The notes under the pieces were generated by a model. That model was given only the letters and a program-made list of their open reading frames with translations, was not told the DNA's origin and did no database searches. This document shows positions 2,085 to 17,578 of a stretch of DNA of 38,751 bases, piece by piece. Position numbers and translations under genes: made by a program. The stretch's first letter is position 1, and every line of letters starts with the position of its first letter. The DNA comes from an uncultured Coriobacteriaceae bacterium (GTDB taxonomy: Bacteria > Actinomycetota > Coriobacteriia > Coriobacteriales > Atopobiaceae): contig CADBJR010000009.1 in assembly GCA_902795065.1 (NCBI GenBank), positions 1 to 38,751 on the forward strand. Reading direction: 5' to 3'.

Positions 2085-2100
2085 AAATGGACGATACGCC

Positions 2101-2923: not shown

Positions 2924-2961
2924 ACTGCAGTCGATCAGCGGGCATGCGCGCTATGGGGCAA

Positions 2962-3091
2962 ACTAATGTAACCGAAATCGCATCAACAATTCTGAGCAAG
3001 TGAATGACCTGCAGATATTAATTGAAGCTGCATGAAGACTAATGTAATTGGGCGTGGAAACAATCCGAAGCGATACCGTTTTTACATTAGT
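2962..3091. repeat. Three copies of ACTAATGTAA
   Basis: The 10-mer ACTAATGTAA occurs at 2962-2971 and 3038-3047 on the plus strand and at 3082-3091 on the minus strand, all exact. The last two form an inverted pair with a 34-base spacer. They lie in the 215-base gap between the convergent NERD and HTH genes. They may be protein-binding sites or remnants of a mobile element; no gene is visible in this gap. Confidence 0.5.
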
Positions 3092-3138
3092 ACGCACGCT
3101 CTTTAGGTAAAGTGATGCTCTTTTTCATATACGGCTGA

Positions 3139-4371
3139 TCATTGGCTTAAACACTGGTTCTCCCTGAGCACCTCCCTGTACGCTTCGAGCGTGGGAGAGG
3201 GTTCTCCGACTGGCTCCAAGAAGAAGGCATCCGCCTCGATGCCCTTAGTGTCATATGGAATCTGCGGCTTCTTATTTGGCGCGGACCCATCCACGGTATG
3301 CTCGTTGCCAAAGACGCCGTCTGCTGCGTGCGTGACTGGATCTGCCCAATCCGCCTTTTCGCGCACCCAGGTGGCCTGCTCGGCATCACCGGCAGCTTCG
3401 AGGGCGTCAGCATAGCGCCTTAGGCGTTCCGCGCGTTCATGTGCTTTCGAGAGCCTAAGCGCTTCCTCATATCGTTCGATTTCCTTGTTGAACTCCTTGC
3501 GGCGCTCGTTTTCCGCCGCTACCGATGCCTGTTTCTCCGCATAGCGCGCCCTTGTCTCGGCGAGTGCCTCGCGCGCATCGACCCTTGCCTTTGCTTTGTA
3601 TGCGGCGTCTATGCAGAGTTCCGCGAATGCTCTGGGAACGTTCTGCTCAAGGGTCTTCTTCCGGAAGTCCTTGTAGATGGAGGTTCCAACGTACATGGAG
3701 AGGAGCCCATTGTAGGAGCGGGTGGGCACCTGACCCTTGCGGTACTTGCCTAGGTGCTCGGAGAAGCTGACGTTGATTCTCTCGCCGAAGATATCGAAGC
3801 CGTTTTCGTCGTAGTTTCCGCCAAGCTGCTCGGCAGCCCGCCCCATCGCTTCGAGGATAGCGCACATCCTCGCAACGGAGCTGGGGGAGGTATATGTCCA
3901 GAGGCAGTTATGAGTAATCGTGTTCTTTGAGAGCCACTGATTGAGTGAGCGCTCGCTCCTGCAAACATCCCGCTGCCATTTCAGGTGAGGTCTGAGATCC
4001 GCGTCTGGATCGATGACAATGCTTTTGGCAACACGGATGATGAGGTTGACGGTACCCTCGCCGAGGATTCTGTCGATAACACCAAGCGGGTCCTCGTCCC
4101 TCCTGTCTTCGACGATGTCTTCGGGGGTACCCGTGGTTCCCTGCGGCCCGGGCCTGTGTTCGGTAAGCGGCGGCTTTGCCGGTCTCATGCCTGCCGCCAC
4201 CTTCATCCAATAGCTGGCATCTGGAAAGGGGATGCCCCTGTTGGCACAGCTCTTCTGGATGGCATCGACCGACACGTTCATGCGCTCTGCAAGAACTTCA
4301 AGCGGAATGCTCCAGACAAAGGAGTAGAGCATCTCGCGGTCGATGTGTGCGAGCACCTCGAGTTCGCTCAT
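3139..4371 (-). CDS. HTH and coiled-coil protein
   Basis: The 410-residue protein opens with a helix-turn-helix motif (about residues 13-55: LYSFVWSIPLEVLAERMNVS, then a Cys, IPFP and YW). This LY..VW..P...A...vS pattern recurs at the start of many uncharacterised bacterial proteins and is probably a DNA-binding module. The middle is alpha/beta with no motif I recognise. Residues about 260-345 are a charged Glu/Arg/Ala-rich coiled coil, and the tail is disordered. The start at 4371 is chosen because GGGAGG lies 8 bases upstream; ATGs at 4377 and 4419 are possible. It faces the NERD gene and has no close partner. Confidence 0.7.
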   Translation of the reverse strand: MSELEVLAHIDREMLYSFVWSIPLEVLAERMNVSVDAIQKSCANRGIPFPDASYWMKVAAGMRPAKPPLTEHRPGPQGTTGTPEDIVEDRRDEDPLGVIDRILGEGTVNLIIRVAKSIVIDPDADLRPHLKWQRDVCRSERSLNQWLSKNTITHNCLWTYTSPSSVARMCAILEAMGRAAEQLGGNYDENGFDIFGERINVSFSEHLGKYRKGQVPTRSYNGLLSMYVGTSIYKDFRKKTLEQNVPRAFAELCIDAAYKAKARVDAREALAETRARYAEKQASVAAENERRKEFNKEIERYEEALRLSKAHERAERLRRYADALEAAGDAEQATWVREKADWADPVTHAADGVFGNEHTVDGSAPNKKPQIPYDTKGIEADAFFLEPVGEPSPTLEAYREVLRENQCLSQ

Positions 4372-4502
4372 GGGCATGGCCTCCCTCTTTCGCTGCGAGT
4401 GGTCATGTCCATTGTGCATCTAGCCCCAGCCCCGTCTGCTTCCGGGTTCGGCCATGAAACGCTGCTCGTAGTACTTTTGCCCGCAGCACTTCTGTCATGT
4501 CC

Positions 4503-4690
4503 CGACTTGCTCTCCTCGGCTAGAAGGGCAAAACCCGCGCACCTCGATTCGCGAAATTTACAACCCCTGTCATGAGGGGCCCGCGCGGCCTCTCATGACC
4601 CATCCCCACACAGAAGGAGACAACCATGCCCGTCATCCGCAGCCCTGCGCGGTGCGCCCCGCACGCACAAAAACGCAACCCCATGCGAGG
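4503..4690 (+). pseudogene. Duplicated leader with truncated small-peptide start
   Basis: This stretch is a diverged copy of 6810-6990, the leader of the gene at 7004. Shared parts include the CTCGGCTAG loop, a CCCCTG...AGGGGCCCGCGCGGCC hairpin, a GGAGACAACC ribosome site, and a 19-codon start reading MPVIRSPAR..PHAQKRNP. Over that coding start the two copies differ at only two bases. The homology stops after about 4683 and the open frame runs on to 5063 through repeat sequence with no sign of selection. I read it as a promoter/leader duplication that lost its gene. A conserved regulatory peptide is the alternative. Confidence 0.55.
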
Positions 4691-4874
4691 TTGTCCGCTC
4701 TGCTGCCATCATACGCTTGCCCTTGCTCGCCCAGTCCAACGGCCAGAGCGGGTAGCAAAGACAAATGCTGTAGTAACCACCTGCTTAGAACTCGAACCTA
4801 CTAGGACCTACTCGAACCTTAAGGTACAAGCTCGGCATTTGTCTGCACCTGCAAAACCTCTTTTGCGTGACAAT

Positions 4875-5115
4875 TACTCCGTTGCAGTTCCCCGCTACTC
4901 CGTTCTAGTCCGTTTTACTCCGTTATTCGCAGGTAGAAGCCTCAGTCGCAACGCTCCGAACGGTATCGCTGAGGTCGTATCTCGCCTTAACTCCAGGGTT
5001 ACTCTGCTGCAGGTCCGTCTTACTCCGTCATGCATGGCGAAGCATACGGAGCTTTGGGGTTGAGGCTGGTCGCTGACGATGCCCGCTACTCCGTTCTAGT
5101 CCGTTTTACTCCGTC
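4875..5115. repeat. TACTCCGT repeat cluster
   Basis: The motif TA(C/G)TCCGT(T/C) occurs about eight times. It is densest in two near-identical 33-base blocks at 4891-4923 and 5082-5114, plus single copies near 4875 and 5021. The last copy ends at the stop codon of the minus-strand gene at 5114. With the leader duplication, these repeats fill the 740-base gap between 4372 and 5113, where I see no intact gene. Confidence 0.6.
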
Positions 5116-6556
5116 ATCTGGCAAGCGTGTAGTACTGCGACGGATCATGCGTGCTGCTGCCGTGCCATTCGAGGATCCCCATTGCGGCGAGCCTCTTGAG
5201 CGTCCTCGCGCACAGGCTGCTGCCCTTCTCGATGCGCTCCCCGAGCTCCTTGGTGGTCACACGACCCCTGCCCATGGCCAGCTGTACGGCGGCGATCTCG
5301 TAGCCGTTGAGTCCCTCCATCACGCCCTGGCCGACAGACTCCTCCAGCGTGTCGAACTGCCGCAGCACGCGCGAGGTTGCGCTGTTCTCAAGCGTCAGCT
5401 GTACCGAGGCGTCATTGGGTTCCTCGAATATCGGGTCGTTCAGAAAGAAACTCGCCATCTCGTCGTAGATACGCTGCACGCCCTCGTTAAGCTCACGAAC
5501 CCAGCCCATCTCCACCAGTGCGCGAGCGATGACAGGGTTGCGCGAGTAGCGCGTATGGCGCATGTTCTCGAGCGTGACGATGCTCGGAAGCTTGCCGGGA
5601 GAGAGGATCTCCATGCGGTCGTCGTACATCATCACGCGGATGTGGTCGCCGCTGAAAGCGTAGTCGCGGTGTGTGACGGCGTTGACCAGGCCCTCGAACC
5701 AGGCGAACTCCGGGTACTCGGGGATGACCTTGAACCTGCCGTCGTCGCCTAGGTACTGGAACTCGCGCAGCTGTTCGGAGATCATGGCCTTCGCGCCTTC
5801 GATGGCCTTGGGGAGAGGCCCGTCGAAGGTCCGCTCCTTCACGATGTTGAGGCGCCTGCCCGTCTGCATCTTGTTCCCGTCGAAGCGGATGACCCTTACG
5901 CGGGCACAGGGTATGAAGCGAGTCGGATTCTTGGCGAAGATGAGCACGCCAGCATTGGTCAGATGGCCGTTCACAAGGAAGCCTCTGCTGCGTAGAACCT
6001 GCTCATCGGGAAGGTCGGTTCCGATGTCCGCCTTGTAGCGGGCCAAGACCTCCGGGTCAACGTCCTCAATTGAGGAGCGATCGGCAATCTCGTCCTCGAA
6101 GTGTCTCTGGTTCTTGTCATATTCAAGCCTGATTACCTGCTCGCGGTCGAGCTCCACGCTCTTGTCGCCCTGTCGCAGGAACACCTTCTTGTCGTTTCGG
6201 CGGCAGATGACCCTGTCGGGGGACGGCTCCACCTCGATGACCAGGATGAAGTCGTCACTGCCAGATGAAGTGACGACCGGAATCCGCTCAACGTGAACGC
6301 TTGGTCCGGGTGTGCAGCTGGTGAGGTGGATTTGCTCGTAGTCCTCGACGTTTTGGGCGCCCTCGTAGTCGAAGCCGGTTACCTCGCCGTCGTCCTCGAT
6401 GCCGATGACCAGCTTCCCTCCCGAGGCGTTGGCGAACGCCACGACATGCCTTGCAGCATCGTTGGGCTTGATGCGCGCGCTCTTGCGGTCGAAGAACTGG
6501 TTCTCCTTGATATTGGAGAAGACGTTCACGTCATTCCGGTTGATCGGATGCTGCAT
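5114..6556 (-). CDS. AlbA_2/HATPase transcriptional-regulator-like protein
   Basis: The 480-residue protein matches the COG2865 layout. An N-terminal Schlafen-type AlbA_2 domain spans about residues 10-135 (FDRKSARI, FANASGGKLVIGIEDDG). A HATPase-like domain lies around 265-365 (LVNAVTHRDYAFSGDHIRV, DRMEILSPGKLPSIV), and a C-terminal winged helix follows (about 405-480). Members are called ATP-binding DNA-binding proteins or putative regulators; the target is unknown. The start has GGGAGG five bases upstream. It is alone on its strand, flanked on both sides by repeats and the duplicated leader, and so probably part of the mobile accessory region. Confidence 0.85.
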   Translation of the reverse strand: MQHPINRNDVNVFSNIKENQFFDRKSARIKPNDAARHVVAFANASGGKLVIGIEDDGEVTGFDYEGAQNVEDYEQIHLTSCTPGPSVHVERIPVVTSSGSDDFILVIEVEPSPDRVICRRNDKKVFLRQGDKSVELDREQVIRLEYDKNQRHFEDEIADRSSIEDVDPEVLARYKADIGTDLPDEQVLRSRGFLVNGHLTNAGVLIFAKNPTRFIPCARVRVIRFDGNKMQTGRRLNIVKERTFDGPLPKAIEGAKAMISEQLREFQYLGDDGRFKVIPEYPEFAWFEGLVNAVTHRDYAFSGDHIRVMMYDDRMEILSPGKLPSIVTLENMRHTRYSRNPVIARALVEMGWVRELNEGVQRIYDEMASFFLNDPIFEEPNDASVQLTLENSATSRVLRQFDTLEESVGQGVMEGLNGYEIAAVQLAMGRGRVTTKELGERIEKGSSLCARTLKRLAAMGILEWHGSSTHDPSQYYTLAR

Positions 6557-6677
6557 AATGCCTCCCGTTATGTTAGGGATTCATTTTACAGCAGCTCATG
6601 TCGACCCTTCAGCCATGAAGGCCTTTATGTATGTGGAGGGGCGGGTACATTTGGAGAAAGGTTATTACTCGCGGTCG

Positions 6678-6841
6678 GTTTTGCTCTTGCCCGTCAAGAG
6701 AGCAAAACGTAACCGAAGGCTCGAACAGTGCTTCCTGAGCCAGCTTGCTCCTCCCTGCCAGTAGAGCAAAACACACCCGCAGGCTAAAACGGGGCTTCCG
6801 AGCAGGTTTTGCTCCCCTCGGCTAGGAGAGCAAAAGCCTGC
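6678..6841. repeat. Tandem TTTTGCTC/GAGCAAAA hairpins
   Basis: Three hairpins follow each other at about 64-base spacing. The stems are 6678-6687 with 6699-6708 (10 bp), 6745-6750 with 6764-6769 (6 bp), and 6802-6814 with 6828-6841 (13 bp with one bulge). The bases between them are also alike (AGGCT...GCTTCC), so the whole unit is tandemly repeated. A degenerate single copy lies at about 4440-4520 before the duplicated leader. They precede the 7004 gene and may be leader RNA structures. Confidence 0.6.
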
Positions 6842-7003
6842 CGCACCCCCATTCGCAGAATTAACAACCCCTGTAACGAGGGGCCCGCGCGGCCTCTCAC
6901 GACCCATCCCCAAACAGAGGAGACAACCATGCCCGTCATCCGCAGCCCTGCGCGGCGCGTCCCGCACGCACAAAAACGCAACCCCGACCAAGAAGGAGAC
7001 ATC
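6842..7003 (+). promoter_or_regulatory. Leader of the 7004 gene with an upstream in-frame start
   Basis: The leader holds a CCCCTG...GAGGGGCC hairpin region and a second ribosome site (GAGGAG about 7 bases before ATG 6929). That ATG opens MPVIRSPARRVPHAQKRNP and reads in frame, without a stop, into the 7004 gene. It would therefore add 25 residues to that product. The duplicate at 4503-4690 keeps this start and site. Whether it encodes a leader peptide or an N-extended form cannot be decided here. Confidence 0.5.
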
Positions 7004-7330
7004 ATGTCGAACCGCACGCCCGAAGAGAAGACACTGCTCGCAAAGCTCGCATCCGGCCTGCTCGACGGATCCGTCGGCACCGACCTCACCACCACCGGCG
7101 GATCCACCGTGTGGACCCGCATCAAAGACGGCACGCCCGCGCGCCTGAAGCAAGGCCCCGGCACGCGCTTCTTCGACGGGCGCGAGAACGACGAGAAGCC
7201 CGGGCGTCTCCACGTGCTGGCGGAGTGGACCACCGACGACGAGAAGCTCGCCTTCCTGCAGAAGTTCGGCTGGCTCATGGCCGACGACGATGCGCGAAGC
7301 TACAGCGCCAAGTTCAAGCCGGAGAGGTAG
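7004..7330 (+). CDS. Small hypothetical protein, 108 aa
   Basis: This is an unrecognised soluble protein with many charged residues and no Cys. It runs from an Ala/Leu helix (EEKTLLAKLASGLLDG) through a Gly/Thr-rich strand region to a closing EKLAFLQKFGWLMADDD segment. AAGGAG lies 6 bases before the ATG. An upstream start at 6929 is in frame and would extend it. It is followed, after a repeat cluster, by the OB-fold gene at 7499, so the two may form a unit. No function can be assigned. Confidence 0.6.
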   Translation: MSNRTPEEKTLLAKLASGLLDGSVGTDLTTTGGSTVWTRIKDGTPARLKQGPGTRFFDGRENDEKPGRLHVLAEWTTDDEKLAFLQKFGWLMADDDARSYSAKFKPER

Positions 7331-7333
7331 CAA

Positions 7334-7482
7334 CCCAAAGGGGGATACTCCCCCTTTGGGCACGTGATAGCGTCTTCGACTTCGTATCTCATCCAACCAT
7401 TTCGGGGGATATCCCCCTTTGGGCACGTGATAGCGTCTCAACCCCGTATCTCTTACGTCCCATTCGGGGAGTACCCCCGAAT
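7334..7482. repeat. Triple palindrome cluster, GGGG/CCCC family
   Basis: Three G-run/C-run hairpins occur at 7334-7360 (11-bp perfect stem, loop ATACT), 7404-7417 (GGGGGATATCCCCC) and 7462-7482 (8-bp stem, loop AGTAC). A 26-base string starting at the C-run repeats exactly at 7350 and 7413. Between hairpins lies a small GATA...TATC stem-loop that has a counterpart at 12457-12481. The cluster fills the gap before the OB-fold gene. Confidence 0.8.
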
Positions 7483-7498
7483 TGGGAAAGGAGATCAT

Positions 7499-7939
7499 AT
7501 GCCCGCTTATCTGCTCGTCCACGTCCTTATCCGCACCGTCATCCTGGTTGTGCTCTGCACGCTCGCCATACGCTCGGGCTACCGCATCGGCTATCGCGAT
7601 TACATGCTCGGACGGCGCCCGCGCATTCCCTTGCTCGAGCGCGACGACGATCCCGGCGACACCGCCGCCGACCGCACCTCCGCGGATCCGCTCTCGTGCA
7701 TCCTCGAGGGCACTGTCACCGGACTCAAGGTGCACAACATGCTCGATTCCAAGAAGGCCATGGCACTGTTCACGCTGGTAGACGGCTCGCGCAGCACCGT
7801 CTGCGTGGTGTTCCCGAAGGTCCTCGCTGATTGCGGGGGCGTGCTCGCCGAGGGCGCGTCCGTGCGCGTGTCCGGCACCCTCGAGAGCTCGATTGACTTT
7901 ATCCAGCTCGCCGTCACCGCCATCGAGCCGCTGACGTAG
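7499..7939 (+). CDS. Membrane-anchored OB-fold protein (copy 2)
   Basis: The 146-residue paralogue of the 1165-1671 protein has a transmembrane helix at about residues 5-24, the same IRSGYRIGYRD box, a shorter linker, and an OB-fold (about 68-144; CILEGTVTG...CVVFPKVLA...SVRVSGTLE) of the DNA polymerase III alpha type. AAAGGAG lies just upstream of the ATG, and the start matches that of the paralogue. There is no internal ribosome site like that of copy 1. Palindrome clusters lie on both sides. Nucleic-acid binding at the membrane is inferred from the fold only. Confidence 0.7.
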   Translation: MPAYLLVHVLIRTVILVVLCTLAIRSGYRIGYRDYMLGRRPRIPLLERDDDPGDTAADRTSADPLSCILEGTVTGLKVHNMLDSKKAMALFTLVDGSRSTVCVVFPKVLADCGGVLAEGASVRVSGTLESSIDFIQLAVTAIEPLT

Positions 7940-7945
7940 CGCGTT

Positions 7946-8036
7946 GCCCAAAGGGGGATACTCCCCTTTGGGGAATATCCCCCTTTGGGCACTCCAGACT
8001 CAACGGACCCAAATCCGAAGGGTATCCCCAAAAGGG
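7946..8036. repeat. Palindrome cluster, GGGG/CCCC family
   Basis: A perfect 15-bp inverted repeat (7946-7960 with 7976-7990) encloses a second CCCC-TTT-GGGG hairpin. A further GGGTATCCCC block lies at 8020-8029. It follows the stop of the OB-fold gene and could act as a transcript end or stabiliser, but no U-run follows. Confidence 0.75.
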
Positions 8037-8040
8037 TAAA

Positions 8041-8126
8041 TCCTCCTAAATCAGTAAAAGTTAATCAATCAAAACCTCTTAAAACAGCAAAAGATACGTG
8101 CTAAAATCCTCTTAAAACAGTACATC
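8041..8126 (+). promoter_or_regulatory. Three direct repeats at exact 33-bp spacing
   Basis: Copies of a roughly 20-base unit, consensus (T/A)CCTC(C/T)TAAA(T/A)CAG(T/C)A, start at 8041, 8074 and 8107. The period is exactly 33 bp, near three helical turns, in an A+T-rich stretch just before the DUF4143 ATPase gene. A TGCTAAAAT extended -10-like string (8099-8107) overlaps the third copy. They look like operator or iteron sites placed on one face of the helix. Confidence 0.6.
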
Positions 8127-8141
8127 ACGATTGGATAATCC

Positions 8142-9527
8142 ATGCTCAAACGGTCAATTGATAAGAAGCTGGCTGCATGGAAGGCACGCCCGCACCATCC
8201 GCTCGTGCTCAGCGGTCTGCGCCAAACCGGCAAAACGTTCAGCGTCCGAGCATTTGGCAGGGCAAGCTATGGCAATGTCGTCTACCTCGATCTTCGGGCG
8301 AACAAAGCCTTAAGGGCCGCCTTCTCCGGCGACTTCGACGTTGACAAGATGGTGCTCTCCATCACGGCAAACATGCCCGGCGCACGCTTCGTACCAAACG
8401 ATACGCTGCTCATTCTCGACGAGGTCCAAGACAGTGCCGATGCGCGCAGCTCGCTGAAATACTGGGACCTCGATGGCCGCTACGACGTTATCGCAACCGG
8501 GAGCTTCCTGGGTGTGAAAGGCTTCCGCGAGCCCTACCCGCGTGGCATTCCGGTGGGGTATGAGGAGCATCTCACCATGCATCCGCTCGATTTTTGCGAA
8601 TTCGCGGTAAACATGGGCATCTCCGAGGAGGTGCTGCATCACGCCCAGCAGTCCCTCACGGCGCTCGAACCGCTGCTGCCTGCCGTCCATGCGGGCCTTC
8701 AGGAGCTCTACCACCAGTTCCTTATCGTGGGAGGGATGCCCGAGGCGGTGAACACGTTTCTCGAGGCGCATGATCTTAATGCCGTGAGGAGCGTGCAGCG
8801 CGGAATTATCGCCTCCATACGCGATGACTTCGGGCGATACAAAAACGCCAAGGGCGAGGATGCGGTGAACGAGACCCTCAAGCTGCGGGCCGAGGCCTGC
8901 CTTGACTCGCTGCCCGCACAGCTGTCGAAGGAATATAAAAAGTTTCAATACAGCAAGGTCGATGTGGCGGGAAATAGCCCGCAGAAGGCCGATGGCCTGC
9001 AGTACCTTGTCGATGTGGGGCTTGTCGTGAAGTCCTATAACCTGCGCGAGATATCGGCGCCGCTCGAAGGGCAGAAGATCGGCAACGAGTTCAAGGTGTT
9101 CTTCGCCGACACGGGCCTGCTCGTCTCCCAGCTGGAGCAGGGAACTGCCGCGCGCATTCTCGCGGGCGATTTGAGCTCGTACAAAGGCGCGGTTGCCGAG
9201 AACATGGTTGCCTCGGCTCTTTCTGCTGCCGAGAAGGAGCTGTATTACTACCATGCGCCGAGCGGCTCTCCCGAGCTTGACTTTGTGGTGAACCTGCATG
9301 GGGAGCCAACCATTTTGGAGTGCAAGTCCACCAACGGGCGTGCGACGAGCATGCGCTATGTCCTGAAGAATCCCAAGAAGTACGGAGCGCATCCTGCCAT
9401 CAAACTTGCCGCGACCAACGTTGGAGGAGGGGAGGGGTTCGTTACGCTTCCCTCCTACGCGCTCGGATTTCTCGAAAAGGACGCGCAGGCGCTGGTCGCT
9501 CCCTCGGTAAGCATCTCCCTGACGTGA
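8142..9527 (+). CDS. AAA ATPase with DUF4143-type C-terminus (copy 1)
   Basis: The 461-residue protein has a P-loop at residues 25-32 (GLRQTGKT), a Walker B stretch (LLILDEVQD) near residue 90, and the ATGSFLG segment typical of the AAA_14 family. The C-terminal DUF4143 domain has a nuclease-like LDFVV...ILECKS motif. Such proteins are common and often multicopy in gut anaerobes; their role is unproven. Only a weak ribosome site precedes the ATG. The second family member at 12648 is much diverged. The gene sits directly behind the 33-bp repeats and may be controlled through them. Confidence 0.85.
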   Translation: MLKRSIDKKLAAWKARPHHPLVLSGLRQTGKTFSVRAFGRASYGNVVYLDLRANKALRAAFSGDFDVDKMVLSITANMPGARFVPNDTLLILDEVQDSADARSSLKYWDLDGRYDVIATGSFLGVKGFREPYPRGIPVGYEEHLTMHPLDFCEFAVNMGISEEVLHHAQQSLTALEPLLPAVHAGLQELYHQFLIVGGMPEAVNTFLEAHDLNAVRSVQRGIIASIRDDFGRYKNAKGEDAVNETLKLRAEACLDSLPAQLSKEYKKFQYSKVDVAGNSPQKADGLQYLVDVGLVVKSYNLREISAPLEGQKIGNEFKVFFADTGLLVSQLEQGTAARILAGDLSSYKGAVAENMVASALSAAEKELYYYHAPSGSPELDFVVNLHGEPTILECKSTNGRATSMRYVLKNPKKYGAHPAIKLAATNVGGGEGFVTLPSYALGFLEKDAQALVAPSVSISLT

Positions 9528-9579
9528 TGCCTTTGCCCGTAGCGTAGCCGTTATCCCTCTTCCCTTTGGAGCACGCGCC

Positions 9580-10152
9580 ATGGCCGACGACCTCTCGCAA
9601 CTCACCCTCGAGGAGCTCTGGCAGCTCTTCCCCATATTCCTCGTCGAGCACAATCCCGCGTGGCGGCGGCGCTACGAGGCGATGGCGGGCGAGCTGGCCG
9701 GGCTGCTTGCGGGCTTCAAAGTCGCGCGGATCAGCCACATCGGCAGCACCGCCGTCGACGGCATCATGGCGAAGGACATCGTTGACATCCTGGTGGAGCT
9801 CCCGCGGAACGCGAGCATGGAGGCCGCGGCGGGGGTGCTCGGGCGCGCCGGATTTATCGTTATGTCCGCCGAGGGCGAGCGGATCTCGCTCAACCGCGGC
9901 TACATGCCGGACGGCTTTGCCGACGAGGTCTTCCATGTGCACCTGCGCTACGTGGGCGACAACGACGGGCTCTATTTCCGCGACTACCTGCGCGAACATC
10001 CCGAGGTTGCCAGGGAGTACGAGGCGCTCAAGCTGGGCCTATGGAAGCGCTACGAGCACAACCGGGACGCCTATACCGAGGCGAAGGGCGACTTCATAAG
10101 GGCGGTCACCGCGGAGGCAAAGCGCGCCTTTGCTGGCCGGTACTGCAGATAG
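9580..10152 (+). CDS. GrpB-like nucleotidyltransferase-family protein
   Basis: The 190-residue protein matches the GrpB/UPF0157 family, a nucleotidyltransferase-fold group of unproven function. The signature ISHIGSTAVDGIMAKDIVDILVE (about residues 46-68) holds the GS motif and the Asp pair. The later HVHLRYVGDNDGLYFRDYLREHP segment and the closing YTEAKGDFI are also typical. Length is normal. GGAG lies about 10 bases before the ATG. It stands alone between an ATPase gene and a repeat cluster. Confidence 0.85.
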   Translation: MADDLSQLTLEELWQLFPIFLVEHNPAWRRRYEAMAGELAGLLAGFKVARISHIGSTAVDGIMAKDIVDILVELPRNASMEAAAGVLGRAGFIVMSAEGERISLNRGYMPDGFADEVFHVHLRYVGDNDGLYFRDYLREHPEVAREYEALKLGLWKRYEHNRDAYTEAKGDFIRAVTAEAKRAFAGRYCR

Positions 10153-10264
10153 GGGAGTACCCCTTTTTTGGGGTTCGCTTAGAGCCGATTAACATACCAT
10201 TTGCGCCAACTATTCGGCCTCCATTTTCGGAAGTCCGAATAACTCCGCCAAATGGTTTGTTAAT
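10151..10264. repeat. G-run palindrome and 30-bp imperfect inverted repeat
   Basis: AGGGGAGTACCCCT (10151-10164) overlaps the stop of the GrpB gene and belongs to the G-run/C-run family. It is followed by an imperfect inverted repeat with arms 10188-10217 and 10235-10264 (about 23 of 30 positions pair) around a 17-base spacer. This looks like a small MITE-type element or a cruciform. No gene lies between 10152 and 10349. Confidence 0.55.
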
Positions 10265-10348
10265 TTGCCGCGCCTGCTGCCTGGGTTTTTGTCCACCACG
10301 CCCGATATGCTAATCCCAACATCGGAAAGCTGTTCCAAGGAGCCTATC

Positions 10349-11161
10349 ATGGCAGCAAACGAGCAGGTGGCAGAGCGTATCCAGGCGCTGCGCGACGAGA
10401 TCCGCGCCGTGCGTGCGTCCATCGTGGAGATGCTTGCGCGCATCGATCACATCACCTTGCAGGAGCTTCCGCAGATTCGCATTGACTACGCGGTTAAGAT
10501 CGGCTGCTGGGAGCAGGAGCTGCTCGAGGCGGAGCTTGCTGGCCGCCGCGCCCGCCGCAGGTTGGCGCTGGCGCAGGCAGAGGCAAACCGTGGGCAGGCT
10601 ATAGAGCTCGCGCACATAGACAGCCAGCTTGATATCGAGCTTGCCGACTGGCAGGCAAAAGCCGAGGCCGCGCGTCTGGCATACGAGGCAGCGCTCAAGC
10701 AGCGTCTGGGAACGCAGCGGCTCTCGCACACAGACGCAAAAGAGGTCAGGTGCCTTTATCGCACGCTGGTCAAGCGCCTGCACCCCGATGTCTGCCACGG
10801 GGGAGAGCGCGAGGCTGCGCTATTCAAGATGGCGCAGGCCGCCTACGCGAACGGCGATGTTGAGGCGCTGCGTTCGCTGGAGGTTGCAACGCGTCACATG
10901 GATCCCTCGGAGGACGATTTGGAGCTTGCTACCAGCGAGTCCGAGCTCGAGCAGGAACTCGAGCTGGCGCGTATCGAGGAGGACGTGGTGCGCGAGCGTC
11001 TCGAGCAGACGGAGGATTGCGAGGAGATGCGCCTGGGCCGGCTGCTCAACAGCACGGAGTGGCTCACCCAGCGCACGTCTCAGCTTCGCGATGCGATCGA
11101 CGAGTGGCGGCGCGCGAAGCACGATTGCGAGCGCAGGCTGGCTGAGCTCATGGAGGTGTGA
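10349..11161 (+). CDS. Coiled-coil protein with J-like domain
   Basis: The 270-residue protein has long helices (about 1-120), then a J-like domain at about 128-180. That domain has the YRTLVKRLHPDV core and the HPD tripeptide (residues 145-147) that contacts Hsp70 in true J-proteins. A Glu-rich region (about 190-240) and a final coiled coil follow. It may recruit DnaK to a client; the client is unknown. The start is set by AAGGAG 8 bases before ATG 10349. It is the first of three tightly coupled genes (10349, 11163, 11575): its GGAGG-containing end supplies the ribosome site of the HIRAN gene. Confidence 0.75.
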   Translation: MAANEQVAERIQALRDEIRAVRASIVEMLARIDHITLQELPQIRIDYAVKIGCWEQELLEAELAGRRARRRLALAQAEANRGQAIELAHIDSQLDIELADWQAKAEAARLAYEAALKQRLGTQRLSHTDAKEVRCLYRTLVKRLHPDVCHGGEREAALFKMAQAAYANGDVEALRSLEVATRHMDPSEDDLELATSESELEQELELARIEEDVVRERLEQTEDCEEMRLGRLLNSTEWLTQRTSQLRDAIDEWRRAKHDCERRLAELMEV

Positions 11162-11162
11162 G

Positions 11163-11582
11163 ATGGCAGATAACACGCTTGCTCCGCTGGATCTTGGCAC
11201 GGCGGGAGGGCTTCTCGCCGCAATGCACGGCAATGGACCCGCCGGCGTCGAGGTGCCCAAGCCCTATGCGCAGCGCATCTGCCTTCTGCCCGACGTTCGT
11301 GTGGCGGGAACCTCGCATATCGATGGGATTGGCGAGCTCGCATCGCAGCTGCATGAGGGGGATGGCCTTCGCCTGGAGCGCGACACTAAGAACCGTTTCG
11401 ACCACTGGGCCATCCGCGTGCTCGACGCGCGCGGCAGGCGCCTGGGCTTTTTGCCTGCCGACAATAACGAGATTATCGCGCGTCTGATGGACGGCGGTAA
11501 GCGCATCGTGGGAGAGGTGCTCAGCGTGGAAGACGTGAGCGGCTGGGCGCGCATCGGGATGGCGGTGTGGCTTGATGACTAA
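11163..11582 (+). CDS. HIRAN-domain protein
   Basis: The 139-residue protein is almost entirely a HIRAN domain, a fold that binds DNA ends or stalled forks in Rad5/HLTF-type proteins. The pattern VAGTSHIDGIGELASQLHEGDGLRLERDTKNRFDHWAIRV...RLGFLP...NEIIARLMDGG is typical. No helicase or nuclease is attached, so it is a stand-alone HIRAN. It begins one base after the J-domain gene, using GGAGG in that gene's last codons, and its end overlaps the next gene. A DNA-related role is inferred from the family; bacterial stand-alone members are uncharacterised as far as I know. Confidence 0.8.
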   Translation: MADNTLAPLDLGTAGGLLAAMHGNGPAGVEVPKPYAQRICLLPDVRVAGTSHIDGIGELASQLHEGDGLRLERDTKNRFDHWAIRVLDARGRRLGFLPADNNEIIARLMDGGKRIVGEVLSVEDVSGWARIGMAVWLDD

Positions 11583-12408
11583 CTGGAACGGCAACGGTGG
11601 AGGATGGGGCGGAGATGCCCCCGTGTTCGACACCTACTTCGAATACGACTGGGGCGGCCGCAGGTGGCCCTACCCCGATGTATGGATCACCTACCAGCGC
11701 GATATGCCCACGGCAACGCGTACGGGGCGCGACTGCATCTGGCATTACACGCCCGACCAGGACGACGACGGCTGGGAGGCGCTTGGCTACGGCGGAGATT
11801 ACTATGACGAGGGCATGTCCTGCGTAGACGATGACGAGCACGAGAAGCGTGTGATGTGCTTCCAAGCTGCGGAGCTGCTCTATCTGCATGCCGCGGCAAA
11901 AGGCAACCCTATTGCAGACCTCTGCCTGGGCTACGTGTATGCCTACGATCGCTGCGAAGACAAATACTGGGAGAAGCTCACGGGCTGGCAGACCGACGAG
12001 GATCTGCGCACGCCGTTCGACTGCGACGGGCACGCGTACCGGCATTTCCGCCGCGCGGCCGAGGCGGGCGTGGGCGAGGCCTGCTACAAGCTGGGCGATA
12101 TGTTCCGCGATGGCCGCGGGTGCGAGGTCGATCTCGCCCAGGCGTTCGAGTGGTTCTCCAAGGCCTACGAGCTCACCAAAGACGACAGACCGCATCTGTG
12201 GGGGAGCGCCGCGCTGCGTCTGGGTGCGGCCTTCGAGGAGGGTGAGGGCTGCGATCACAGCTTCGAGAAGGCGGAGCACTGGTACAAGATCGCCACTACG
12301 GGTCTGGGCGCCGAGGTGAGGGCGGGCGGCAGCTGGTACCGGGGCGCGCTGAGACGTGCGGAGGCCGGTCTTGTGCGTGTTCTCCAGGAGCTCGACGGCC
12401 GGTACTGA
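11575..12408 (+). CDS. Sel1-like repeat protein
   Basis: The 277-residue protein has an aromatic, Gly/Asp-rich N-terminus (residues 1-75) and a C-terminal solenoid of Sel1-like repeats (about 150-275). The consensus A..F..AA..G...A...LG.M...G.G.. is seen in AYRHFRRAAEAGVGEACYKLGDMF and its successors. Such repeats act as protein-binding scaffolds. It overlaps the stop of the HIRAN gene by 8 bases, so translation is coupled. An in-frame TTG three bases earlier is less likely than ATG 11575. It probably bridges partners of the J/HIRAN set, which is inference from operon structure. Confidence 0.75.
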   Translation: MTNWNGNGGGWGGDAPVFDTYFEYDWGGRRWPYPDVWITYQRDMPTATRTGRDCIWHYTPDQDDDGWEALGYGGDYYDEGMSCVDDDEHEKRVMCFQAAELLYLHAAAKGNPIADLCLGYVYAYDRCEDKYWEKLTGWQTDEDLRTPFDCDGHAYRHFRRAAEAGVGEACYKLGDMFRDGRGCEVDLAQAFEWFSKAYELTKDDRPHLWGSAALRLGAAFEEGEGCDHSFEKAEHWYKIATTGLGAEVRAGGSWYRGALRRAEAGLVRVLQELDGRY

Positions 12409-12428
12409 TGCGTGTGCTCGTGGTGTTC

Positions 12429-12514
12429 TCATTTTGGGGATACTCCCCGAAATGACAGGCAGCGTCTTCGACGTCGTGCCTCATCCAACCATTTCGGGGA
12501 ATACCCCAAAATGG
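12429..12514. repeat. Three-hairpin repeat, GGGG/CCCC family
   Basis: Outer hairpins at 12429-12455 (11 paired positions including one G-T, loop ATACT) and 12489-12514 flank a central stem-loop at 12457-12481 (AGGCA...TGCCT). The outer two are inverted copies of each other. The central and right parts align with 7368-7408 (GCGTCTTCGAC...CATCCAACCATTTCGGGG). The paired bases of the central stem differ in a compensating way. A further GGGG-TTAT-CCCC block follows at about 12549-12560. Confidence 0.8.
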
Positions 12515-12600
12515 ATCACGTGTGGATCGCGCCGTTTTCTCGCCCAATAGGGGGTTATCCCCTTGCTTTGGTTTCAAAAAACCTTGCATCTACCAGCATT

Positions 12601-12637
12601 ATGTGAAAAACTTGCAGTAAATGAAAGTTTTTCACAT
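12601..12637 (+). promoter_or_regulatory. 13-bp perfect inverted repeat before DUF4143 gene
   Basis: The arms at 12601-12613 (ATGTGAAAAACTT) and 12625-12637 are exact reverse complements with an 11-base spacer. The repeat ends one base before the GGAGG of the following gene. It may be an operator, or an mRNA hairpin that controls access to the ribosome site. No U-run follows, so a terminator is unlikely. Confidence 0.65.
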
Positions 12638-12647
12638 GGAGGATACC

Positions 12648-13910
12648 GTGATCGAACGCCCGAGATATCTTCAGCGCCTTAAGACGTTCCAAGACAAGGA
12701 TCTTATCAAGGTCGTAACCGGCGTGCGCAGATGCGGCAAATCCACGTTGCTGGACCTTATGAAGGAGGATCTTCTCTCGCAGGACGTTCCCAGCGACCGT
12801 ATTCTCTCGTTCAAAATGGAATCGATGGAATACGACGGTCTCGATGACTATCGGGAACTCTACCGTATCGTCATGGATTGCGCGAGGGGATTGACCCATC
12901 CCTATCTCTTCTTCGACGAGCTCCAGGATGTTCCTGGCTGGGAGCGGGCGATCAATTCCCTGCGGGTCGACCTTGATTGCGATATCTACATCACGGGATC
13001 GAACGCGCATCTCCTCTCGAGCGAGCTGTCCACATTGATATCGGGAAGATACATCGAGGTTGAGATGCGCCCGCTTGTCTTTGAGGAGTATCTGAGATTC
13101 AGGGGCTTTACGCGCATTGCCGCATCTCCTAGCCTTGCGCAGACCTCAGACGGGAGCATAGCTGCTTTGGCTGATCTCTTCGCGGACTACCGGCGTTTTG
13201 GGGGGTTCCCGTTCCTTTCGCTGTCAGAGCCCGACCTCGAAACGCATCGTGCGTATATGCGCACGCTCTACGAGACGGTCATCGTGCGGGATATTCTGGA
13301 ACGTGCCCGCAGACGAGGTGATCGCGAGCTTCAAAACAGGGCCCTTCTCGAGCGCATCTGCGCATTTCTCGCGGACAACGTGGGAAACCCGAATTCGGTG
13401 AACAGCATAGCCAAGGCGATCAAGGCAGAAGGGCTTTATGCGGTGAACGACACCGTCGACGCATACGTCGCGGCGCTAACGCGGGCGTATCTCTTCTATC
13501 ACGTGCAGCGGTTCGATATCAAAGGCAAGGATCTGCTCAAGACAAACGGCAAACATTATGTTGTTGATACAGGAATCAGGAGCTACCTGGATGGATACCG
13601 CGATGCGGATCTGGGACATGTGCTCGAGAACATCGTCTTCCATCAGCTGTCATATCAAGGCTATGGCGTCAACGTGGGAAAGCTCCGTTCAGGCGAGGTC
13701 GATTTCGTTGCCCAGCGAGGAGCCGAAAGGGTCTATATACAGGTGACGGAGAACATGCTGGACGATGACACGATGCGACGCGAGCTTGCGCCGTTGCGAG
13801 CGATTCCCGATGCGTATCCCAAGATGGTTGTCGTTGGATCGGGCGAGTATCCCGCCGATATCGATGGCATAAGAATCGTCAGGATTGAAGACTACCTACT
13901 TTCTGATTGA
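12648..13910 (+). CDS. AAA ATPase with DUF4143 domain (copy 2)
   Basis: The 420-residue protein starts MIERPRYLQRLKTFQDKDLIKVVTGVRRCGKST, the classic opening of this family. The P-loop is at residues 25-32, the Walker B is LFFDELQD, and the DUF4143 part includes FEEYLRFRG and the DTGIRSYLDG helix. The C-terminal nuclease-like motif reads VDFVAQR...YIQVTE, with Gln in place of the usual Glu-Cys-Lys seen in copy 1. The GTG start is chosen because GGAGG lies 5 bases upstream and the family begins there; ATG 12636 overlaps the ribosome site. Function is unproven for the family. Confidence 0.85.
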   Translation: MIERPRYLQRLKTFQDKDLIKVVTGVRRCGKSTLLDLMKEDLLSQDVPSDRILSFKMESMEYDGLDDYRELYRIVMDCARGLTHPYLFFDELQDVPGWERAINSLRVDLDCDIYITGSNAHLLSSELSTLISGRYIEVEMRPLVFEEYLRFRGFTRIAASPSLAQTSDGSIAALADLFADYRRFGGFPFLSLSEPDLETHRAYMRTLYETVIVRDILERARRRGDRELQNRALLERICAFLADNVGNPNSVNSIAKAIKAEGLYAVNDTVDAYVAALTRAYLFYHVQRFDIKGKDLLKTNGKHYVVDTGIRSYLDGYRDADLGHVLENIVFHQLSYQGYGVNVGKLRSGEVDFVAQRGAERVYIQVTENMLDDDTMRRELAPLRAIPDAYPKMVVVGSGEYPADIDGIRIVRIEDYLLSD

Positions 13911-13961
13911 CAACTACACTACGAGCAAAAGTGTCAAGTTTCGATGCGTCTGGAGGCTGCC

Positions 13962-14366
13962 ATGAAATGGCCGTGGTCGAAGCAAACCGAAAAGAGCGGG
14001 CAGCAGGGCCATATGACGCTCGCCGACGTGCACGACTACATCGGCAGCCGCTACGGGGTGAGCCCCGTCAAGGCGTTCGACGAGGACCCGGGCATCGGCG
14101 TCTTCGCACGACCCGATAACGGCAAGTGGTTCGTGGCCACGAAGAACATCCGCTGCAGCTCGGTGGGCGCGGCGGGCGACGGCCGCGTGGACATCGTCAA
14201 CCTGCGGCTCAACCCGCGCGACGTGGCCGAGCTGCGCACGCGCGAGGGGTTCCGATCCGCGTGGCACATGAATCCCAACAAGTGGGTCACCCTCCTGCTC
14301 GACGGCTCGGCGGCCGACGACGAGGTGCGCGCCCTTATCGACACAAGCTACGCCTTCATGGCCTAG
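13962..14366 (+). CDS. MmcQ/YjbR-family protein
   Basis: The 134-residue protein has the double-wing DNA-binding-like fold of the MmcQ/YjbR family. FARPDNGKWFVATKNI lies near the middle, followed by DIVNLRLNPRDVAELRTREGFRSAWHMNPNKWVTLLLDG and the closing helix VRALIDTSYAFM. The function is not established; the family is abundant in gut bacteria. GGAGG lies 7 bases before ATG 13962; an ATG at 13944 lacks a site. It runs convergently with the Fic gene, 31 bases away. Confidence 0.8.
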   Translation: MKWPWSKQTEKSGQQGHMTLADVHDYIGSRYGVSPVKAFDEDPGIGVFARPDNGKWFVATKNIRCSSVGAAGDGRVDIVNLRLNPRDVAELRTREGFRSAWHMNPNKWVTLLLDGSAADDEVRALIDTSYAFMA

Positions 14367-14397
14367 CCGCACTTGGCGCGTGGCTGCGAGCCCGCGC

Positions 14398-15321
14398 TTA
14401 CGGAATCTCGATTTCGAAAAACGCCAGCAGCCTTCTGAACTCGTCCTGACCGTCCAGGCAGGTGCCGATAAGATACCCGCGCTCGCGGCTCCACTCCTGG
14501 AGCCCGCGATAGTAGAATGCCTTCTTCGCGTCTTCGATGATGAAGGGGACGATGCTCCAGCGCAGGCATTCTTTGAGCGCGACGAGCCTCCCGACCCTGC
14601 CGTTGCCGTCTTGGAACGGGTGTATGCGCTCGAACTCCGCGTGGAAGGCGACGATGTCCTCTATGGTTGCGGATTCGCGCGCGTTCCAGCTCTCCAGAAG
14701 CTCCCTCATCCTAGCGGGGACGTCCTTCGGCGCTGTTGTCTCGCGGCCGCCGACCATGTTGGCGCGCTGCTTGTAGTCGCCGACGGAGAACGACGGAAGC
14801 GAGGCGTCCCGCGTGTCGTGCTTCAGGATGCGGTGGAGCTCCTTGATCATGTCCTCGGCCAGCACGTCCTCCGCGTGGTCGATCACGTAGTCGATTGCCC
14901 TGAAGTGGTGGATCGTCTCGAGGATGTCGTCCACGGGGATGCCGTCGCCGGCGTCGATAGTCCTGGTCTCGAAGATCAGCCGCGTTTGCTCCTCGGTGAG
15001 CGTGCTGCCCTCCAGGTGGTTGGAGTTGTAGGTCATGCGCACCTGCAGCTCGTGGTACAGGCCCCCGCGGATGCCCGCGTCCTTCTCCTCGCGCAGGCGC
15101 TGCAGCACCGGGTTCGCCGAGATGATCCGGTAGAGGTCCTCCGGCGCGCATCCCAGGGTGCCCGCGATTTTTTGGAGAACGATGGGGGAGACCCGCTCGC
15201 CTTTCGCGAATTTCGCAATCGTGCGCGATGAGATGCCGGGATCGCGCGTGAGGTCGGTTCTGGTCAGGCCCTTCTCGGTTAGCTTCTGCTCGAGCTCCTC
15301 GTATGAATACAGGGCGATCAC
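14398..15321 (-). CDS. Fic-family AMP transferase with N-terminal HTH
   Basis: The 307-residue protein has a Cro/CI-type helix-turn-helix (about 10-66) and a Fic domain with the full catalytic motif HPFQDGNGRVGR (234-245). Fic enzymes usually transfer AMP to Ser/Thr/Tyr of a target protein. An autoinhibitory motif SNHLEG (100-105) fits (S/T)xxxE(G/N) and lies before the Fic core, so activity is likely held in check within the protein. The start is a GTG whose GGAGG overlaps it too closely, so initiation is uncertain; no other start lies before an upstream stop. A perfect inverted repeat around the -10 box suggests the HTH represses its own gene. Confidence 0.88.
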   Translation of the reverse strand: MIALYSYEELEQKLTEKGLTRTDLTRDPGISSRTIAKFAKGERVSPIVLQKIAGTLGCAPEDLYRIISANPVLQRLREEKDAGIRGGLYHELQVRMTYNSNHLEGSTLTEEQTRLIFETRTIDAGDGIPVDDILETIHHFRAIDYVIDHAEDVLAEDMIKELHRILKHDTRDASLPSFSVGDYKQRANMVGGRETTAPKDVPARMRELLESWNARESATIEDIVAFHAEFERIHPFQDGNGRVGRLVALKECLRWSIVPFIIEDAKKAFYYRGLQEWSRERGYLIGTCLDGQDEFRRLLAFFEIEIP

Positions 15322-15331
15322 CTCCGTGATG

Positions 15332-15369
15332 CTTTACTATTCGATTCAATTATACCCATAATAGTAAAG
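15332..15369 (-). promoter_or_regulatory. Promoter and probable operator of the Fic gene
   Basis: On the minus strand TATAAT (15349-15354) lies between two arms of a perfect 10-bp inverted repeat, CTTTACTATT (15332-15341 and 15360-15369). A third half-site, AGTAAAG, lies at 15394-15400. This is the expected layout for autorepression by the encoded HTH domain. The third site is close to the divergent NERD promoter and could link the two genes. Confidence 0.6.
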
Positions 15370-15412
15370 GTAATGCGCCCAGCTCACCGCGCAAAGTAAA
15401 GGTCACGTGGCG

Positions 15413-15440
15413 CCTTTGCCCGCAGCAGATCTGTCATAAT
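15413..15440 (+). promoter_or_regulatory. Promoter of NERD gene (copy 2)
   Basis: TTTGCC (15413-15418) and CATAAT (15435-15440) are spaced 16 bases. The -10 region is shared with the 2101 promoter (ATAATCCAAG). The -35 to spacer part (TTTGCCCGCAGCA...CTGTCAT) also recurs at about 4472-4495 before the duplicated leader, where the -10 is degraded. Confidence 0.55.
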
Positions 15441-15472
15441 CCAAGCAGGTCCCGTGCACGGAGGTTCACCAG

Positions 15473-16252
15473 ATGTCCGAGCTCGACGGCATATTCGACT
15501 ATCTCCTCGATATCGCCCGCGGCAACATGCCCGGGCCCATCGGCATGCTCAAGGCGCCCGACGAGAAGGGCCCGCTCGGCGAGTACCTCATCAAATACGC
15601 GCTCGACAACAACCTCGCCACCACGGGGTATCCCACCTACACGAACCTCATCGTGCCCGGCACGGACGCCTCCGCCAACATCGCCGAGATCGACGTGCTC
15701 CTGCTCACCGCCAAGGGCATCTTCGTGTTCGAGTTCAAGAACTACGCGGGGTGGATCTTCGGCAGCGCCAACCAGCGCCAATGGACGGTCAGCCTGGCGA
15801 AAGACAAGCGCGAGCGCTTCTACAGCCCCGTCCTGCAGAACCGCACGCACATCCGCGCGCTCGCGGACTATCTCGGCCTTGATACCAGCGCGTTCCGCTC
15901 CTACATCGTCTTCAGCGCCCGCTGCGTGCTCAAGGCGGTCCCCGACGACACCGCCGAGTACTGCATCTGCCAGCGGCCCGGCCTGCGCGCCCGCATCAAG
16001 CGCGACCTGCGCGAGCGCCTGGCCATCTTCGACAACGACACGCTCCGCTCCATCAAGGAACGCCTCGATCTACTCGCCGCCGCCTCGAGCGAAGACGCGC
16101 GCGAGGAGCACGCGGAGCAGGTGCAGGCAGCGCTGCGCACCTGCCCGGTCTGCGGCAAGCCCCTCGTGGAGCGCCACCGCAAGTCCGATGGCGGCACCTT
16201 TATCGGCTGCAGCGGCTACCCCAAGTGCCGCTACACGCGAAACAGCTGGTAG
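15473..16252 (+). CDS. NERD-domain nuclease-related protein with zinc ribbon (copy 2)
   Basis: The 259-residue paralogue of the 2144-2923 protein aligns end to end without gaps. The NERD core keeps E72, D74, E87 and K89 (here FEFKN), and the zinc ribbon keeps C224, C227, C246 and C252. The start has a clear GGAGG about 8 bases upstream. The two copies differ mostly at third positions and conservative sites, so both appear under selection rather than one being decayed. It is divergent from the Fic gene. A 7-bp inverted repeat (16296-16302 with 16317-16323) downstream may end its transcript. Confidence 0.87.
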   Translation: MSELDGIFDYLLDIARGNMPGPIGMLKAPDEKGPLGEYLIKYALDNNLATTGYPTYTNLIVPGTDASANIAEIDVLLLTAKGIFVFEFKNYAGWIFGSANQRQWTVSLAKDKRERFYSPVLQNRTHIRALADYLGLDTSAFRSYIVFSARCVLKAVPDDTAEYCICQRPGLRARIKRDLRERLAIFDNDTLRSIKERLDLLAAASSEDAREEHAEQVQAALRTCPVCGKPLVERHRKSDGGTFIGCSGYPKCRYTRNSW

Positions 16253-16432
16253 GGTTCTGTTTCAATAGTCACGTCCGCTTGGATTGGCTCTCTCCAACTG
16301 ACACATGGGCTCATCCGTCAGTTCTTGTCCTGCCTGCATGCGACAATACCCGCATGGAAGGATGATTGCTGCCCTGGCCATATTGTATGGTGGGGTTATA
16401 TGTATAATATAATTATAGCAGCATGGAATGAC

Positions 16433-16549
16433 TTGTCGTTCGAGTGGGACCCGGCTAAGGCGGAGATAAACCTTTCCAAGCATGGGGTGAGCCTCGAAGA
16501 GACAAAGAGCGAGGCGAGCTACTACTGGAGGTTGAGGAATGGAAGCTGA
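16433..16549 (+). pseudogene. brnT: Internally deleted BrnT toxin
   Basis: The frame reads LSFEWDPAKAEINLSKHGVSLEE, the conserved N-terminus of BrnT ribonuclease toxins. It then passes directly to TKSEASYYWRLRNGS, which resembles the far C-terminus. A normal BrnT is about 90 residues; here the middle, with most of the active site, is missing without a frame change. The likely start is TTG 16433; an upstream ATG at 16400 overlaps a TATAAT (16403-16408). Its end overlaps the BrnA start, as in intact brnTA operons. It is almost surely not an active toxin. Confidence 0.65.
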
Positions 16550-16742
16550 ATACGATTTCACAGAATCGCGGCCCAACCCCTATGTCCCGCGTGCACGCAA
16601 GCAGGTCACGATGAATATCGACGTAAGCACCATCGAGTACTTCAAGGAGGAGTCCGCGCGCACGGGCGTGCCTTATCAGACCATCATGAACATGTTCCTC
16701 GGCCAGTGCGCCCGGGAGCAGAAGCACCTTGTTTTCTCGTAG
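16539..16742 (+). CDS. brnA: BrnA-type antitoxin
   Basis: The 67-residue ribbon-helix-helix protein has the BrnA pattern: RPNPYVPRARKQVTMNIDVSTIEYFKEESARTGVPYQTIMNMFL. In intact systems BrnA binds BrnT and represses the brnTA promoter. GGAGG lies about 8 bases before the ATG, and the gene overlaps the deleted brnT by 11 bases. With its toxin broken it is an orphan, but its frame is intact, so it may still bind DNA. Confidence 0.75.
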   Translation: MEAEYDFTESRPNPYVPRARKQVTMNIDVSTIEYFKEESARTGVPYQTIMNMFLGQCAREQKHLVFS

Positions 16743-16852
16743 ATTCTGCTGCTGCCGTTAATTCCAGCGAGACCAGCGCGTCATGTCCCACGCCCGCGCA
16801 ACTTGCTACGATTGAACCATCGCCCATCCGCAACCAGGGGAGACGCACCGCG

Positions 16853-17557
16853 ATGAATGCCGAGACGCGCGAGTTCATCAACCTGTACAACCAGCTCGAG
16901 AGCCTCATCCGCAGCTCGTACGACCTCCCGAAGGACGCCGGCCCCATCTACTGGCTCTCCCATAGCCTCTCGAGCTTTCGCGACGTAAGCACCGACCTGG
17001 ACTACATCCGGCGCGTGCGCAACCTGCTCTCGCACTGCGGCCTCGTGAACGACGACTACCCCGTCACCCCGAGCGAGGGCATGCTGGAGACCCTCCGCGC
17101 GACCATCGACAAGGTGCGCGACATCCCCAACGCGCTGCGCCTCTGCATCGAGACGCGCGACATCTTCTCGGCGAGCATGGACGACTGCATCCGCCCGGCG
17201 ATGCGCGAGATGGCGGAGAAGGTCTTCACGCACGTCCCGATCCTCGAGGACGGGCGCGTGGTGGGCGTGTTCAGCGAGAATACGCTGCTCGCCTACATGA
17301 ATACGTCCAACATCGTCGTGATCTCCGAGAACGACACGTTCGAAAAGGTGCGCGACTTCCTGCCGCTCGACCGGCACGTCTCCGAGAAGTTCGCGTTCGT
17401 CTCGCGCGGGACGATCGCGACCGAGGTCGTGAAGCTGTTCCAGGACTCCCTTGCGCGACGCGAGCGGGTGGGCATGGTGTTCGTCACCGAGCACGGCGAG
17501 CCGGACGAGGAGCTGCTCGGCATCCTCACCGCGTGGGATATGGCGGCGTTCTTCTGA
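16853..17557 (+). CDS. HEPN-like helical domain fused to CBS pair
   Basis: In the 234-residue protein, residues 1-95 are helical and hold RNLLSH (56-61). This fits the R-x4-H signature of HEPN ribonuclease domains, with Asn after the Arg as is common. Residues about 105-232 look like a CBS domain pair (MREMAEKVFTHVPILEDGRVVGVFSENTLLAYM, then FVTEHGEPDEELLGILTAWDMAAFF), which usually binds adenine nucleotides. If the HEPN reading is right, this could be a nucleotide-sensing RNase; it could equally be a non-catalytic helical bundle. The start is ATG 16853 with GGGGAG upstream. No toxin-antitoxin partner follows. Confidence 0.65.
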   Translation: MNAETREFINLYNQLESLIRSSYDLPKDAGPIYWLSHSLSSFRDVSTDLDYIRRVRNLLSHCGLVNDDYPVTPSEGMLETLRATIDKVRDIPNALRLCIETRDIFSASMDDCIRPAMREMAEKVFTHVPILEDGRVVGVFSENTLLAYMNTSNIVVISENDTFEKVRDFLPLDRHVSEKFAFVSRGTIATEVVKLFQDSLARRERVGMVFVTEHGEPDEELLGILTAWDMAAFF

Positions 17558-17578
17558 TGGATCCTCCATGGGGGGAGA

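Follow-up and report, generated by a model that had tools for sequence, protein, structure and literature searches.

REPIN populations are best known from the GTAG-tagged RAYT systems of Proteobacteria. In such systems, described in E. coli, Pseudomonas and Stenotrophomonas (PMC3116915, PMC8266576), intergenic inverted pairs that form hairpins accompany a Y1 protein. TIRtrons (PMC3733652; subclass 2.1 in PMC6006769) encode a Y1 HUH protein with a C-terminal extension, from a gene bracketed by G-run inverted repeats that are also dispersed as singles, dimers and clusters, and a GGGGWSAS motif was reported in most, not all, of their terminal inverted repeats (PMC3733652). For the subclass 2.1 transposases one survey found no REP-like sequences beside the genes (PMC6006769), and terminal inverted repeats have been described (PMC3733652). 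CGTC-tagged REPs are short dispersed palindromes, often dimers, that reportedly do not flank a transposase gene (PMC3733652), and IS200/IS605 elements (IS608, ISDra2) combine a Y1 HUH fold with hairpin ends.

We here analyzed a window of 38,751 nucleotides, meaning the whole stretch of DNA under study, from the 2.24-Mb genome (G000) of an uncultured Coriobacteriaceae bacterium. Its dispersed palindromes are very probably miniature elements of the REP/REPIN kind that belong to a TIRtron and owe their dispersal to a Y1 HUH transposase (RAYT/TIRYT type). In organisation they resemble TIRtrons, with a Y1 HUH protein that has a C-terminal extension (giving weak helix-turn-helix matches), a gene bracketed by G-run inverted repeats, and repeats dispersed singly, as dimers and in clusters; they differ in having a TAC-type core in place of GGGGWSAS, which is present in related clades, and in a host class, Coriobacteriia, mentioned in neither PMC3733652 nor PMC6006769. 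The clade to which the transposase belongs resembles subclass 2.1, and here palindromes lie on both sides of the gene while dispersed copies of the core, unlike in TIRtrons, can number hundreds (genome G031). REP/REPIN systems are matched in the intergenic inverted pairs, the Y1 protein and the closest structural match, which is the E. coli REP transposase 4er8, whereas here the arms are highly variable around a fixed core, the protein is longer and a fixed GTAG tag is absent from the 28 copies of G000 and the 62 of G031. The Y1 HUH fold and hairpin ends are common to IS200/IS605 elements, but 4er8 is the better fold match, and here one or two genes of the clade per genome go with a multicopy repeat. 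CGTC-tagged REPs are similarly short, dispersed and often paired; unlike those, the palindrome copies studied here have no CGTC at a fixed position and flank a transposase gene. A literature search of partial coverage gave no report of such repeats in Coriobacteriia.

A palindrome family in the intergenic gaps of the window

The palindrome unit of the window elements has the core G4-(A/G)TAC(T)-C4 within self-complementary arms, and each locus holds one to three palindromes with at least about four G, a short loop usually containing TA, and at least four C. A sequence-only reading had placed the family at six loci, and all six were recovered at the same positions; it had also described the best copies as two outer hairpins around a central stem-loop, with which folding and arm comparison agreed, the outer palindromes being mutually inverted. 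The elements were as follows, exact cores having been located by search with the 13-mer GGGGATACTCCCC and outlines, except for element 4 and the extra palindrome, by folding and arm comparison.

1994-2084: element 1, inverted palindromes 1994-2021 and 2057-2084 (28 nt each, mutual inverted repeats apart from the loop) with a central stem-loop between them; exact core 2063-2075, minus strand; between two plus-strand genes, the second encoding a NERD protein (2087-2923)
7334-7486: element 2, array of three palindromes at 7334-7360, about 7397-7424 and 7459-7486; central stems 7366-7388 and 7429-7450; exact core 7341-7353
7945-7991: element 3, spacerless inverted pair TGCCCAAAGGGGGATACTCCCCTTTGGGGAATATCCCCCTTTGGGCA; exact core 7954-7966; degenerate half at about 8012-8036
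10151-10164: element 4, solo palindrome over the stop codon of a GrpB-like gene, terminator-like with a T run behind it
12430-12514: element 5, inverted pair 12430-12454 and 12490-12514 with central stem 12457-12481; exact core 12436-12448
12548-12565: probable extra degenerate palindrome GGGGGTTATCCCC, terminator-like
17579-17656: element 6, three tandem palindromes with GTTGCGTT arms; exact cores at 17616 and 17643, minus strand

The window contained 23 matches to GGGGNTACCCC with at most one mismatch, compared to 2.0 expected, and none of 100 shuffles scored as high. The exact core had 28 occurrences genome-wide and its reversed control none, with six of the 28 copies within the first 17.7 kb of the window and spread over five of the six loci, an excess over a uniform distribution with a Poisson P of about 1e-7 for cores and 3e-6 for loci. 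One hit in the genome, at L068 5334-5349, was a chance match in coding sequence and was dropped as an element.

That the copies lie nearly all in gaps between genes, as had been proposed, was confirmed with our own gene list, by which all six clusters were intergenic (intergenic fraction of positions 1-17,800, 0.22; chance about 1e-4). Every cluster sits between co-directional genes, most of them backed by Pfam, and starts 0-21 nt past a stop codon. A G+C-rich hairpin followed by a T run, as in intrinsic terminators, was missing at most copies; it was clear only at 10151-10164 and weak at 12548-12565, and the minus strand at 7341 showed no more than a short tail.

The region 1-17,700, richer than expected in exact cores, looks like an accessory region, with genes for two NERD proteins (2087, 15473), two AAA_14/DUF4143 ATPases (8142, 12621), two OB-fold proteins (1165, 7499), a Fic protein and a Schlafen/AlbA_2 protein.

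Pairing and covariation of the arms

We measured covariation by pair counts in a fixed register, with shuffles and slides as controls. For 25 exact-core copies of G000, 81.4% of cells were paired compared to 68.4% after shuffling, and the covariation score was 0.336 as against 0.134 when shuffled, a contrast whose significance the shuffles exaggerate because the copies are related, and at most 0.130 with the partner slid. The strong covariation of this genome was located in the arms adjoining the core. In G031 it was instead outer arm that paired with outer arm (GTGC-N5), with 87-95% Watson-Crick pairs at the five variable positions compared to 40-53% when shuffled, and pairing between adjacent arms as such was not upheld. 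A palindrome family with compensating stem changes, as had been proposed, is borne out by these numbers, and its covariation reaches past the G and C runs.

Of 62 G031 copies (L100-L102, L179-L188), 57 have GTGC at position -9 relative to the core, with five variable yet complementary bases between the two. This GTGC could be a tag or cleavage guide replacing GTAG.

The case from which compensation had first been argued was an exchange of GATA/TATC for AGGCA/TGCCT between window copies 2 and 5, the only two sites in the genome with exact matches to the central GCGTCTTCGACNTCGT. That difference belongs to the central stem and comes to two base pairs, and with two closely related copies it proves little alone. 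Nor does compensation establish selection on structure, since template switching can alter both arms at once. Stem compensation by itself does not show selection at the RNA level, as recognition of DNA hairpins and one-step template switching predict it too; the pairing may arise through recognition of single-stranded DNA hairpins, template switching (PMC8794818), RNA selection or a mixture of these.

Template switching in replication, with hairpin-templated repair of quasi-palindromes, is a documented way in which hairpins are both made and repaired in a single step (PMC8794818), and could, in place of selection, have produced the compensating changes in repeats that may otherwise be inert remnants. 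The G031 copies differ by whole five-base blocks, with 24 outer-arm variants among 38 pairs and few mispaired intermediates, and between window copies 2 and 5 two neighbouring base pairs change jointly, both as this explanation would have it. Templated repair alone should, however, remove mismatches, and two bases inside the G031 core remain mismatched (21% Watson-Crick compared to 35-41% when shuffled), which speaks against template switching alone; the core itself is moreover fixed. We regard it as highly unlikely as the explanation; it addresses how the covariation came about and can stand together with an origin through a transposase.

Copies in the genome and across Coriobacteriia

A search of Coriobacteriia genomes, which had been suggested together with the covariation analysis, revealed further copies both genome-wide and in relatives. 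About 40 places in G000, counted solely within stretches fetched around pattern matches, hold palindromes of this sort, whether alone, in inverted pairs or arrayed. The exact core was present in 44 of 398 genomes of the class, with at least 10 copies in seven: G031 (413), G391 (110), G249 (76), G385 (62), G233 (32), G000 (28) and G322 (17). Copies run from dozens to hundreds in some gut bacteria of this class. Within 260 kb of G031 we found 38 inverted pairs, including a few double-counted or mispaired in arrays, and 27 of the 38 had a spacing of 73 bp; inverted pairs at a preferred spacing, as in REPINs, are thus found in G031, and inverted pairs occur in the window as well. It counts against the proposed link that the commonest repeat in G031 is unlike the one beside its transposase gene in both arms and spacing.

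An exact core, freer arms and intergenic placement in the window might also be expected if the palindromes were operators, GGGG-ATACT-CCCC being the palindromic core that a host regulator binds. The patchy spread, with any copy at all in only 44 of the 398 genomes, and the fixed-spacing inverted pairs and bracketing of one transposase clade are unlike a housekeeping operator, making this explanation exceedingly improbable.

We also compared individual slots. L068 has two intergenic slots at which the palindromes of other species differ in their arms. At one of the two, where G003 is without the element, the arms of G017 and G002 were alignable by eye and a C-G pair is exchanged for G-C. Four of ten sampled elements of relatives had both flanks at slots occupied in G000, a sample leaning towards retention because it was chosen by the exact core. 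Beside the gene at window position 36313, G004 has a TAC-core element and G000 a GGGGACAG-type one. The pattern fits long retention plus turnover and is not proof of transposition. For the G031 elements, a search for empty sites within the genus gave identities of 65-82%, which is too low for such a comparison.

The slot that holds a solo palindrome in G000 (L068 3096) is taken in three relatives by a different insertion, some 200 bp in length and having long inverted arms:

L172 6962-7171: insertion of about 200 bp
L170 5066-5272: insertion of about 200 bp
L171 6149-6357: insertion of about 200 bp

A Y1 HUH transposase bracketed by the palindromes

Genome G000 has six Y1_Tnp (PF01797) genes, one of which is bracketed by the palindromes.

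L063 1656-2408 or 2453, minus strand: transposase gene on contig C44, PF01797 over the cut-off

Palindrome pairs with GTTGCGCAAC arms, which the GTTGCGTT arms of element 6 resemble, lie 4 nt past its stop codon and 26 nt ahead of its start codon. The closest relatives of the gene, in G004 (C177) and G031 (C10), are likewise bracketed by inverted repeats of the dispersed family, as in TIRtrons, and TAC-core bracketing was absent at the other Y1 genes first tested. In keeping with a Y1 HUH tyrosine transposase, the HUH histidines H60 and H62 and tyrosine Y119 were invariant in 21 relatives. An AlphaFold model of the G004 homologue (L103; pLDDT 86), which also has C-terminal helices, matched best to 4er8, a REP-associated transposase bound to its REP hairpin (E 4.5e-7), with matches also to 2vjv, 2xma and other IS200/IS605-type structures. 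HTH_23 was found in six of 21 members (best E 0.00054), being below the cut-off in the first member, and the match to NF047646 was below the curated cut-off.

Nine proteins scored at least 270 bits against the C44 transposase, and by classes assigned using text patterns eight of these had TAC-type cores and the ninth (L130) ACACG; most remaining relatives have genes adjoining GGGGACAG-type repeats, and others had different or unclassified ones. In a tree of 75 such transposases, made by a quick search with SH-aLRT support and no bootstrap, these nine proteins, with all eight of the TAC-core ones, formed one group (SH-aLRT 91), nested among ACAG-type proteins. The repeat core and the enzyme appear to have changed together, and the repeat has probably been spread by the one clade of single-strand DNA transposases that it brackets. 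More tentatively, and with some doubt on our part, a Coriobacteriia TIRYT clade might have switched from the GGGGACAG-type core to G4-TAC-C4 and be driving a population of REPIN-like repeats in which the arms diverge by complementary blocks.

At least 10 exact cores were found in three of six genomes with a close homologue and in four of 392 without (Fisher p 6.6e-5, without correction for kinship). The coupling between enzyme and copy number is loose: at the threshold applied, no close homologue turned up in four genomes holding 17-110 exact cores, and three genomes that do have one contain just 0-3 cores. Loss, incomplete assemblies or another enzyme may account for the high-copy genomes devoid of a homologue.

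Contigs labelled Oscillospiraceae encode two Y1 proteins (L111, L117) with about 41% identity to that of C44, reflecting either horizontal transfer or a binning error.

Origin of the palindromes

Whether the structure acts in DNA or in RNA had been left open by the sequence-only reading. The palindromes could be intercistronic RNA elements, such as mRNA stabilisers, attenuators or terminators, maintained by selection on RNA structure and linked to the transposase only historically. Their position just past stop codons between co-directional genes, the strong covariation of their arms, some slots common to several species and the one or two terminator-like copies would all suit such a role, but most copies lack the T run, no palindrome matched Rfam 15 at the gathering score (the window giving only raiA and a tRNA), copy number is very uneven among relatives (0 to 413), and neither the bracketing of a transposase clade nor a clade-specific core is predicted. 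We consider an RNA origin very improbable, and the evidence favours structure at the DNA level because the elements bracket a clade of single-strand DNA transposases and the core tracks that clade. Compensating stem changes need not mean RNA function.

The bracketed gene, the match between enzyme clade and core, and the predicted fold together speak most strongly for a TIRtron whose repeats form a REP/REPIN-like population, and we infer that a C44-type transposase binds, cleaves and moves the palindromes. These would be non-autonomous elements, with the fixed G-run/loop/C-run core folding into a hairpin in single-stranded DNA; the Y1 HUH transposase, whose own bracketed gene lies at another place in the genome, would recognise the hairpin, cleave beside it and spread or rearrange copies, singly, in inverted pairs or in short arrays, within intergenic gaps, and some copies may secondarily act on mRNA. 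With a core that changes with the enzyme clade, the family offers a tractable case of enzyme-repeat co-evolution, and the core switch, if true, would provide a natural series for reading the code of transposase-hairpin recognition outside GTAG systems.

A second palindrome family and other features of the window

That no clear copy lies to the right of about 17.7 kb was correct for the TAC core, but not for a related palindrome with another core.

36197-36320: second palindromic repeat, 59-nt arms 95% complementary, GGGGACAGGTTGTT motif

The GGGGACAGGTTGTT motif fits the published GGGGWSAS motif of terminal inverted repeats and had 37 matches in the genome (reversed control, 0), mostly as plus/minus pairs about 75 bp apart. 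Two other features were seen in this part of the window.

26101-26350: raiA RNA (RF03072), 160 bits, well above the gathering score
About 33170-33451, plus strand: small protein MAENINVNELLEAAKQYGIELTEDQLDGIAGGEI..., by eye resembling a double-glycine (Nif11-type) leader peptide
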